From Chromatiales bacterium (GTDB lineage Bacteria; Pseudomonadota; Gammaproteobacteria; Xanthomonadales; SZUA-36), in the NCBI GenBank assembly GCA_024640045.1, contig JAHEFS010000013.1, forward strand, positions 1 through 38,385: 38,385 nucleotides of DNA, given 5' to 3'. The notes under the pieces were generated by a model. The model was not told the DNA's origin and searched no databases. It saw only the letters and a program-made list of their open reading frames with translations. Both the position numbers and the translations under genes were made by a program. Positions 31,306 to 33,351 of the stretch are shown piece by piece (the first letter of the stretch is position 1; every line of letters starts with the position of its first letter).

Positions 31306-32166
31306 TTGGGTGATTCAAGGACGGGAAAAAACTGGCTGGCAATCATCAGCCTCCTCCTCATTGCGGCCCTGGCGCTTACACCAGTGTTGGATCGGGAGGC
31401 CGAGGCGAAGTACGAGGCGTTGTTTCAGCGCGCTTTGGTCACCTTTGCCCTGGCCCGCACCCTGAATGGCGTCGTTTCGACTATTCAGGGTACGGAATTG
31501 GCGCTGCAGCCGGCCGGTGTTGGTGTGACGCTCACCCCCGGGGAAATTCTCGATCCGGTCAATGATCTCGTGGAGCGTTTTTCCTGGATCATGCTGGGCG
31601 CGACCGTTTCTCTGGGCGTGCAACATGTTTTGCTGGAAGTCAGCGCCTGGTGGGCGCTGCAGGCCCTGGTTGTCGTGCTGTCACTGGTGATGACGTGGCT
31701 GGTTCTGAGGGAAAGATCCAGTCAGCGCGTCTTGAGGATAGTCATAGCCCGGGCACTCCTGATTGCCTTGTTCCTGCGTTTCGCTGTACCCATGACGTTA
31801 ATCATCAATGATGGCTTGTATCAATGGTTCCTGGAGACGCGCTATACCGACAGTACAGAAGTCATTTCTGAGGCCGGTTTGGAGTTGGAAAAGCTGGGTA
31901 ACCAGGGAGCGGAATATGAGAAGGCAGAAGAAACTGTGTCAAACGGCAGTCTTCTGGGAGTGATAGGCCGAGCCGCGGACGCGGCAGCAGAAACGCTCAA
32001 TCTGCGCGTCAGGGTGCAGGAGATCAAGCAGCAGGCGGCAGCCATGATTGAACATGTGATCCAGTTGAGCGTTATTTTTATATTTCAGGCGGGTGTTCTA
32101 CCCATCGCTTTCTTATGGATTTTTCTCCAGACACTAAAATCGGTGTTTCGGCCAATAAAAACATAA
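31306..32166 (+). CDS. Membrane protein of unknown function
   Basis: I do not recognise the family. The 286-residue protein has hydrophobic segments at about 9-28, 93-111, 115-134, 146-168 and 250-277. A soluble charged stretch of about 80 residues (171-248) before the last helix is helical and glutamate/alanine-rich. The region between the first and second helices (29-92) is probably extracytoplasmic if the first segment is an uncleaved signal anchor. Initiation is TTG at 31306, preceded by AAGGAAA. No ATG lies near the conserved-looking N terminus. It begins 21 bp after the EamA gene and is probably co-transcribed. Confidence 0.65.
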   Translation: MGDSRTGKNWLAIISLLLIAALALTPVLDREAEAKYEALFQRALVTFALARTLNGVVSTIQGTELALQPAGVGVTLTPGEILDPVNDLVERFSWIMLGATVSLGVQHVLLEVSAWWALQALVVVLSLVMTWLVLRERSSQRVLRIVIARALLIALFLRFAVPMTLIINDGLYQWFLETRYTDSTEVISEAGLELEKLGNQGAEYEKAEETVSNGSLLGVIGRAADAAAETLNLRVRVQEIKQQAAAMIEHVIQLSVIFIFQAGVLPIAFLWIFLQTLKSVFRPIKT

Positions 32167-32244
32167 CATACTGAATAATATATATATTATCTCTTCTCTC
32201 ATTCTCAGCGACTCATCGAAGGGAAAATTCCTACAATAATATGT
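32167..32244. other. AT-rich interval with 16-bp palindrome
   Basis: The bases after the membrane-protein stop are strongly AT-rich and contain the perfect palindrome ATAATATATATATTAT (32175-32190), followed by a pyrimidine run CTCTTCTCTC. It could act as a weak transcript end or a DNA-unwinding or nucleoid-binding site. No gene is seen here. Confidence 0.4.
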
Positions 32245-32277
32245 TTGACATAAATGTCTATATATGACATAAATGTC
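32245..32277 (+). promoter_or_regulatory. Promoter with twin 12-bp palindromic operators
   Basis: Two exact copies of the palindromic element GACATAAATGTC occur at 32247-32258 and 32266-32277, offset by 19 bp. The first contains most of a consensus -35 (TTGACA, 32245-32250). The second covers the -10 position (CATAAA at 32268-32273, 17-bp spacing). A dimeric repressor binding both sites on nearly the same DNA face (19-bp offset, close to two turns) would occlude the promoter fully. Which protein binds is unknown; the downstream DUF6502 protein is one candidate. Confidence 0.65.
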
Positions 32278-32284
32278 AACCAAG

Positions 32285-32457
32285 AGGGGTTATCGAGTTT
32301 CGCTGGGTAGCCGGTTGCTTCGGCAGATGAAAGGGGGATCTGTCAGGAGCGAAACGGGGGAGCCGGCTTCTCCAGCGAACCACCGACAGGGTTCGGCCTG
32401 AAATCAGGCCGGACTTTGTCCTATGCGGTTTTCGGCACAAAGGGAAGGTGCGCAAAA
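32285..32457 (+). promoter_or_regulatory. Highly structured leader of the DUF6502 gene
   Basis: The 5' leader is GC-rich and dense in complementary segments. GTTTCGCT (32297-32304) pairs with AGCGAAAC (32348-32355). Overlapping TTCGCTGG (32299-32306) pairs alternatively with CCAGCGAA (32372-32379). CAGAT/ATCTG (32324-32328, 32338-32342) competes with CTGTC/GACAG (32340-32344, 32385-32389). GTTCGGCCTG (32391-32400) pairs with CAGGCCGGAC (32405-32414) around AAAT and is followed by TTT. CTTTGT/ACAAAG (32414-32419, 32437-32442) lies next to the ribosome-binding site. A 24-codon open frame runs from ATG 32327 to TGA 32399-32401. I do not recognise a known riboswitch or ribozyme in it. Confidence 0.55.
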
Positions 32458-33351
32458 ATGCATGACAGACCCACGACAAGCAGAGAATTCCCTGGACTCG
32501 ATGGCCATTTAAGGGAAGCCGCCATTCTTACCCGGGCAGTCGAAAACGTCTTGCGCAAGCTGATCCGCCTGCTGATCGGCAGAATATCCCTGACCCGCCT
32601 GCAGGAGTTGATCCGGTTGATCTTCGTGCAGGAAGCTGAAGCGTTTGTGAAGCGTGAAAAGCCAGGGAAAAATGTTCCAATGACCAAATTGGCCTTGCTG
32701 ACCGGTCTGGATACCCGAACCTTGGGGAAGGTGATGGAAGAGACGGCCACAGGGACCCCAGTTCATGAAAGCAAGAATTTTTTGAGAGAAATTACTCCAG
32801 AGTGCAGTGTTTTGGATTTCTGGCAGGTAAATAGTCGGTATCTTGACGACGACGGCCAGCCACTTGAATTACCGATTAAAGGGGATGTTCCCAGTTTTGA
32901 ATCCTTAATTTCTGAAACCCTCACTTCCAGGGGGGTGACGGAAAACTCTCTATTGGAAAGACTTCGAACCAGCAAAGCCGTTGAAATAACCAGTGATGGG
33001 AAGGCCATCCGAATGTTAGATAGACGTTTTTGGCCCTTTCAGCAAAAGGACGACTCAGCGACGCTGGAGATTGGATTAATTTCAGTGGGAAATCTGATTG
33101 ATACGGTCAGCTACAATCTATTTGCTCAAAAAAACGGAGAGGAGCCGCACTTCCAACGCTCTACTTGGACTCATCGGCTCTCATCGAGCCAACAAGCGAG
33201 CCTACGCGCCACAATTAGAAAACTGTTGACTGATTCGGAGGTTCAGGTCACGGAAATATTGGGGCGTTTTGAAGACGAGGAGATCGAACAGGATCAGATT
33301 ACGGTTGGCGTCGGGATTTATTACTTTGAGGAACCTATCGACAATCCCTAA
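32458..33351 (+). CDS. DUF6502 family protein
   Basis: A 297-residue cytoplasmic protein. Residues 30-95 (LRKLIRLLIGRISLTRLQELIRLIF..., then MTKLALLTGLDTRTLGKVMEE) match the N-terminal region of DUF6502. The second part looks like a helix-turn-helix (LALLTGLDTRTLGKVM), so DNA binding is plausible but untested. The C-terminal 180 residues have no motif I know and are less GC-rich at the DNA level than neighbouring genes. The ATG at 32458 has GGGAAGG upstream; a TTG at 32416 would lie inside the structured leader. The gene stands alone between unrelated units and ends just before a tRNA on the other strand. Confidence 0.75.
   Translation: MHDRPTTSREFPGLDGHLREAAILTRAVENVLRKLIRLLIGRISLTRLQELIRLIFVQEAEAFVKREKPGKNVPMTKLALLTGLDTRTLGKVMEETATGTPVHESKNFLREITPECSVLDFWQVNSRYLDDDGQPLELPIKGDVPSFESLISETLTSRGVTENSLLERLRTSKAVEITSDGKAIRMLDRRFWPFQQKDDSATLEIGLISVGNLIDTVSYNLFAQKNGEEPHFQRSTWTHRLSSSQQASLRATIRKLLTDSEVQVTEILGRFEDEEIEQDQITVGVGIYYFEEPIDNP

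Follow-up and report, generated by a model that had tools for sequence, protein, structure and literature searches.

What kind of element precedes the DUF6502 gene in the 38,385-nucleotide stretch of DNA analysed here (the window)? The original prediction described it as a switch-like structured leader, with an undescribed small RNA and a dispersed structured repeat as further options. The structure proved to be real and old, but present evidence speaks against a switch. A small RNA presenting G-rich loops to C-rich RNAs seems a better description than a metabolite switch.

Segment 32281–32460 of the window folded at −80.1 kcal/mol versus −60.5 ± 4.6 kcal/mol in dinucleotide shuffles (z = −4.29), and none of the 200 shuffles was as good. 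In the minimum-energy architecture, P1, P2 and P3 build a long-range stem around a hairpin and a one-sided junction, and a separate 16-bp hairpin (32385–32420) follows downstream. The parts of the RNA are the following.

32280..32428, + strand: the whole structured G-loop RNA (z −4.29; matched by covariance model R1)
32281..32289, + strand: 5′ G-rich motif CAAGAGGGG at the predicted 5′ end, AAGGGG(G) in homologues
32300..32307, + strand: P1 5′ arm, pairing with 32371–32378 (core p ~0.85–1.0)
32309..32315, + strand: P2 5′ arm, pairing with 32362–32368 in the minimum-energy structure
32316..32351, + strand: P3 hairpin, 32316–32328 with 32338–32351, apical loop GAAAGGGGG at 32329–32337
32352..32361, + strand: junction motif AAACGGGGGA, the third G-run, in the minimum-energy structure
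32362..32368, + strand: P2 3′ arm, in the minimum-energy structure
32371..32378, + strand: P1 3′ arm, pairing with 32300–32307
32385..32424, + strand: terminator-like hairpin with U-rich 3′ arm and tail; 16 bp in 32385–32420 (p ~0.94–1.0)

The window RNA exposes three G-runs, which the original prediction did not mention; accessibility of the run in the P3 loop was 0.95 for AAAGGGGG. The window's own tail after the terminal hairpin, TTTGTCCTATG, is a poor T-tract, and a consensus scan called no terminator at the window RNA.

The complementary segments that had suggested a switch are all present in the sequence. The 5′ arm can indeed pair with either of two downstream segments (GTTTCGCT at 32297–32304 with AGCGAAAC at 32348–32355, and TTCGCTGG at 32299–32306 with CCAGCGAA at 32372–32379), but the supposed balance between them was lost on calculation. 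Forcing the first alternative gave −63.0 kcal/mol as compared with −72.8 kcal/mol, a cost of 9.8 kcal/mol, and forcing the second gave −56.1 kcal/mol, a cost of 16.7 kcal/mol. The same applies to the proposed competition of CAGAT/ATCTG with CTGTC/GACAG: both pairs are complementary, but the former (32324–32328 with 32338–32342) forms at p 0.87–0.89 and the latter (32340–32344 with 32385–32389) at p ~0. The predicted 10-bp hairpin at 32391–32414 proved real and extends to the 16 bp listed above. The hairpin next to the ribosome-binding site does appear in the single-sequence fold, but only there, and it is weak. In the window, we found no two mutually exclusive structures, the conservation of the alternatives being judged by eye. 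A compact conserved aptamer core of the riboswitch type was likewise not found; helix sequences and helix number vary between groups. With the alternative pairing near p 0 in the window, the label switch-like is not supported, and the terminator-like 3′ hairpin is no less consistent with a small RNA that is sometimes read through than with a leader that senses a ligand.

A tandem palindromic operator, also absent from the original prediction, lies directly upstream of the RNA and overlaps a putative promoter.

32245..32278, + strand: tandem palindromic operator TTGACATAAATGTC-TATATA-TGACATAAATGTCA, 19-bp pitch
32245–32250 (−35 TTGACA), 17 nt, 32268–32273 (−10 CATAAA), + strand: putative sigma-70 promoter, with an operator over each box
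~32281, + strand: predicted RNA start, deduced from the position of the −10 box and coinciding with the first base of the structured element

A simple consensus scan did not call the promoter at 32245–32273. Exact operator matches numbered 5 in the window (0.66 expected). The general tandem pattern of operator and promoter, TTGACATnnATGTC-N6-TGACATnnATGTCA, occurs in its own genome at this locus only. Allowing up to 3 mismatches, it was found in 21 of the 39 family genomes; the reversed-pattern control gave 0. Among the tandem-pattern matches listed, all lie at DUF6502 loci except one 3-mismatch match (G015:C37). The match in G001 is situated at a contig end, followed by the RNA and the start of the DUF6502 gene. 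Two DUF6502 paralogues (gene 2 of G032 and gene 2 of G031) have kept the operator and lack the RNA. The RNA is therefore separable from the gene, and the gene can run without it, which also speaks against a switch.

Reading upstream of DUF6502 relatives, which were collected by alignment-based searches, yielded 25 homologous RNAs in 23 genomes. The hosts belong nearly all to one gammaproteobacterial family and are sediment MAGs filed mostly as Lysobacterales/Xanthomonadales. All 25 RNAs are located between the tandem operator/promoter and the DUF6502 gene. The order cyclophilin, membrane protein, operator, RNA, DUF6502 is the same as that of the window in several genera. A covariance model (R1) was built from the second subgroup only, with the window excluded. 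In the window's own genome, the window RNA was its only match (E = 2.6e-4). Across the 39 family genomes, every strong match but one precedes a DUF6502 gene; the sole exception is an ordinary tRNA terminator (L124 in G034). Matches of R1 outside family f1 were discarded as apparent chance terminators, being mostly partial, terminator-like pieces at model positions 110–155. Rfam gave no match up to E 10 for 32100–32600, and none at the corresponding loci in 17 relatives.

The helices differ in sequence between homologues while their pairing is kept, P1 and the terminal hairpin showing compensatory changes; the long-range stem equivalent to P1 has a different sequence in each homologue. Covariation was scored in two alignments. 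In A2 (9 rows) and A3 (7 rows), 95.3% and 89.0% of the cells pair, respectively, and 7 pairs changed on both sides in each, counts that lean towards the scored structure because the alignments are small, were made with MAFFT and were scored on a structure derived from their consensus. The covariation score was 0.347 for A2 (0.266 shuffled, at most 0.125 with the pairs slid) and 0.405 for A3 (0.262 shuffled, at most 0.173 with the pairs slid). For the subgroup to which the window belongs (window, L003, L007, L111, L130), the comparison relied on inspection by eye and on folds of single sequences. The mean folding z across the RNA family was −3.7.

The common anatomy begins with A(A)GGGG near the predicted start, followed by P1 and a hairpin whose loop holds A(A)G4-8. 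The junction and the linker behind P1 often hold further A(A)G4-8 motifs, and a hairpin with a U-rich 3′ side closes the RNA. The G-motifs and the terminator are conserved between groups. A run of five or more T stands behind the terminal hairpin in L050, L054 and L049, and a hairpin of similar type closes the ordinary tRNA transcript in G034 (L124). One homologous RNA (L045:3649-3933) carries an insert of ~130 nt with the repeated unit CACCGGGATYGA.

These RNAs form an uncatalogued structured RNA family, a well-supported conclusion that bears out the prediction of an undescribed structured RNA; its structure is conserved, it always adjoins DUF6502, and it has no match in Rfam. It is practically certain that conserved RNAs with two to four A(A)G4-8 motifs lie behind the tandem operator and carry a terminator-like hairpin before DUF6502.

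The 25 RNAs contain 70 runs of four or more G and 1 run of four or more C, and A precedes 58 of the 70 G-runs. The predicted unpaired probability was 0.62 for the Gs of the runs versus 0.30 for other Gs. The number of runs exceeded that in mononucleotide shuffles (mean 40.9, max 57); there was no excess over dinucleotide shuffles, which conserve GG steps (mean 62.5, max 77). Several accessible G-rich regions, as expected of a sponge RNA, are thus present by predicted accessibility. A G-quadruplex was also considered; several members have fewer than four G-runs.

The gene behind the RNA encodes a protein of PF20112.

32458..33351, + strand: DUF6502 protein, 297 aa, predicted HetR-like DNA-binding regulator (PF20112, E = 2.3e-11)

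The protein belongs to PF20112 with 43.5 bits against a cut-off of 27, and a full-text literature search found no paper that names DUF6502. AlphaFold gave a poor model with 9 sequences (pLDDT 65.6) and a better one with 58 (pLDDT 86.6). The best PDB fold match of the 58-sequence model was DNA-bound HetR (4j00; E = 1.2e-3, prob 1.00), over the whole length of the predicted monomer (321 columns, TM 0.44, 13% identity); another HetR entry ranked within the first fifteen matches. The similarity is structural only: hmmsearch of the DUF6502 profile against PDB sequences did not retrieve HetR up to E 10. The DNA site bound by HetR is partly palindromic and 17 bp long, and HetR is subject to autoregulation (PMC4649674). 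This likeness goes with clear differences, as identity and TM are low, the sequence profiles do not match and the operators differ. Since the fold matches that of HetR and the operator is found almost only at DUF6502 genes, autorepression is likely. It is probable that DUF6502 recognises the TGACATnnATGTCA palindromes and thereby represses the promoter from which it is expressed.

In the protein tree, DUF6502 copies without operator or RNA separate from the copies with both (2 changes versus 19.6 shuffled). The DUF6502 genes of family f9 and others were set aside, most of those checked following an EAL-domain gene without operator and without RNA. In other families of the order (L092-L107), DUF6502 is placed directly behind a gene for an EAL-domain (cyclic-di-GMP phosphodiesterase-like) protein, as judged by reading the sequence upstream, again without operator or RNA. 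One contig holds two equal-scoring DUF6502 copies in opposite orientation (G027:C13:27210-28064:+ and 61925-62779:-). Paired, oppositely oriented DUF6502 genes without the G-loop RNA were also observed in g10 (L081, L083, L085, L086), some of them closely preceded by degenerate TGACA-N4-TGTCA sites.

With these parts in hand, we propose that the locus would combine a self-repressed small-RNA gene with the gene for its repressor. Most transcripts would stop at the 3′ hairpin, giving a small RNA of ~140 nt, and read-through would give the DUF6502 mRNA, so that the repressor level would follow the small-RNA output. Such leaky termination, read from the sequence, is somewhat probable. The G-motifs would pair with the C-rich loops of small RNAs, chiefly of a polA-linked sX13-like RNA, and titrate them; de-repression would then release mRNAs from C-loop repression. 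That the G-motifs act in this way, as RosA does, is a tentative hypothesis drawn by analogy. A self-repressed small-RNA gene with its repressor and a sponge RNA may be the best explanation overall, its chances being a little short of even. The most specific version is doubtful: in it, DUF6502 would be a HetR-fold autorepressor, a multi-loop G-rich sponge would be the first product and counteract polA-linked C-loop RNAs of the sX13 kind, and the repressor would be made by read-through.

In Xanthomonas, the polA-linked small RNA sX13 has C-rich loops and targets mRNAs at 4G motifs (PMC3771888), and the regions downstream of polA were therefore examined. An RNA of ~120 nt on the polA strand, with stem-loops carrying C-rich loops and a terminator, was found in 12 genomes including the window's own. 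Genomes with such an RNA comprise the own one, 11 others that carry the G-loop RNA (g4, g12, g14), and G037 of the same genus. A model search added an RNA in G004 and opposite-strand versions after polA in g10 and g13. A second, very conserved C-rich small RNA turned up as well. In the own genome, the two candidates are located as follows.

G000:C16:13303-13431 (L171:1293-1431:-): polA-linked sX13-like C-loop small RNA, below the Rfam sX13 cut-off
G000:C83, about 48830-48960 (L231): second C-rich small RNA, with block ACAGGCAGTCCCCACACTTCTATGCC, a C-rich loop and a terminator

Several of the polA C-loop RNAs were matched by the Rfam sX13 model over its full length at sub-threshold scores (best 35.1 bits, E = 0.002). 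The model alone was rejected as an identification because every match was below its cut-off. The candidate pairing loop of the own-genome RNA is UCCCCCCC, and its counterpart in the G-loop RNA is the P3 loop GAAAGGGGG at 32329–32337. Pairing of the own-genome C-loop GAGUCCCCCCCUUUU with the window loop GAAAGGGGGAUC (the AAAGGGGGA loop) gave 9 bp and −16.1 kcal/mol. Loop co-adaptation was not observed, the own-genome pairing being no better than that with C-loop RNAs of other genomes. Whole-length duplex energies were dropped as pairing evidence, since they ignore internal structure and are uninformative.

The evidence for a sponge from co-occurrence was mixed. The RNAs have 2.4 exposed G4+ runs each where a C-loop RNA was found versus 1.2 elsewhere (permutation p = 0.004, ignoring phylogeny). 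Tight co-occurrence of the G-loop RNA with the polA C-loop RNA was not found: g10 and g13 have the polA C-loop RNA and lack the G-loop RNA, and g2, g5, g6, g7, g9 and g11 have the G-loop RNA and no C-loop RNA at polA. Model R3, used to look for the polA RNA in genomes without it, brought up another conserved C-rich RNA together with chance terminators. Most genomes without the polA C-loop RNA have the second C-rich small RNA, as does the own genome. This second RNA spans at least 7 genera of the family (further loci: L220-L223, L225, L226, L235, L236, L238, L239, L242, L248). In those of its loci that were scanned, no Rfam family reached the gathering threshold.

A small RNA with read-through is the reading we prefer, and its first rival is a cis-acting leader, in which a ligand, a protein or a C-rich small RNA on the G-loops would alter termination at the 3′ hairpin and so set DUF6502 expression. 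Within the family, the RNA turned up nowhere but before DUF6502, its terminator-like hairpin precedes the start codon, and C-loop small RNAs able to act in trans exist, all of which would suit a leader. However, inspection by eye revealed neither a conserved antiterminator nor a conserved upstream segment complementary to the 5′ arm of the terminator. The alternative helix first proposed has p ~0, and the RNA is missing from two operator-driven paralogues. We regard a cis-acting leader as rather unlikely. A type III toxin–antitoxin system was considered for its layout of RNA repeats, terminator and toxin gene, and it was dropped because DUF6502 looks DNA-binding and is syntenic on chromosomes.

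The G-motifs might have targets other than small RNAs. They could be repeated seeds against C-rich stretches of mRNAs, and the G-motif at the predicted 5′ end, the terminator and the repeated exposed loops are typical features of small RNAs; seeds made only of G would be unspecific, however, and we find such a direct regulator improbable. In Csr/Rsm RNAs, G-rich motifs recur in the loops and the single-stranded linkers, and a terminator ends the RNA. The same arrangement here might titrate a protein that binds GGA or G-runs, possibly CsrA/RsmA. GGA occurs within some GGGGGA of the G-loop RNAs, but the motif that recurs has 4 to 10 Gs and reads A(A)G4-8 instead of ANGGA, and protein titration appears less probable still. 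Finally, a compact, GC-rich, structured element amid AT-rich DNA might be a REP- or MITE-like dispersed repeat standing before the gene by chance, as the original prediction had allowed. This is refuted by the single copy in the own genome, by strong matches across the 39 family genomes at DUF6502 loci only, the tRNA terminator apart, and by a syntenic place shared across several genera.

Our analysis adds an uncatalogued structured RNA family, and DUF6502, a protein family of unknown function, gains a proposed role as a HetR-like autorepressor with a defined operator. Were the RNA a sponge, it would be a dedicated antagonist of sX13-type C-loop small RNAs in Gammaproteobacteria, parallel to RosA in Firmicutes. 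This would also explain exposed G-runs of variable length amid stems that change in sequence.

The precedent for a G-rich sponge paired with C-rich small RNAs is RosA of B. subtilis with RoxS and FsrA (PMC8216469). The window RNA resembles RosA and RsaI of S. aureus in build (150–230 nt, several accessible G-rich regions and an intrinsic terminator; PMC8216469), and like them it is complementary to C-rich small-RNA loops of the same genome. In contrast to them, it belongs to another phylum, has no known sequence relation, precedes a DNA-binding gene under an autoregulatory-looking operator, and would titrate its partners only by hypothesis. sX13 (Rfam RF02232) of Xanthomonadaceae represents a possible partner type, the own genome and 12 relatives carrying a polA-linked C-loop RNA; the window RNA is a G-rich counterpart and not a relative of sX13. 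With CsrB and RsmZ it shares repeated G-containing motifs in loops and linkers and the terminator, but its family has A(A)G4-8 instead of ANGGA and is joined to a regulator gene.
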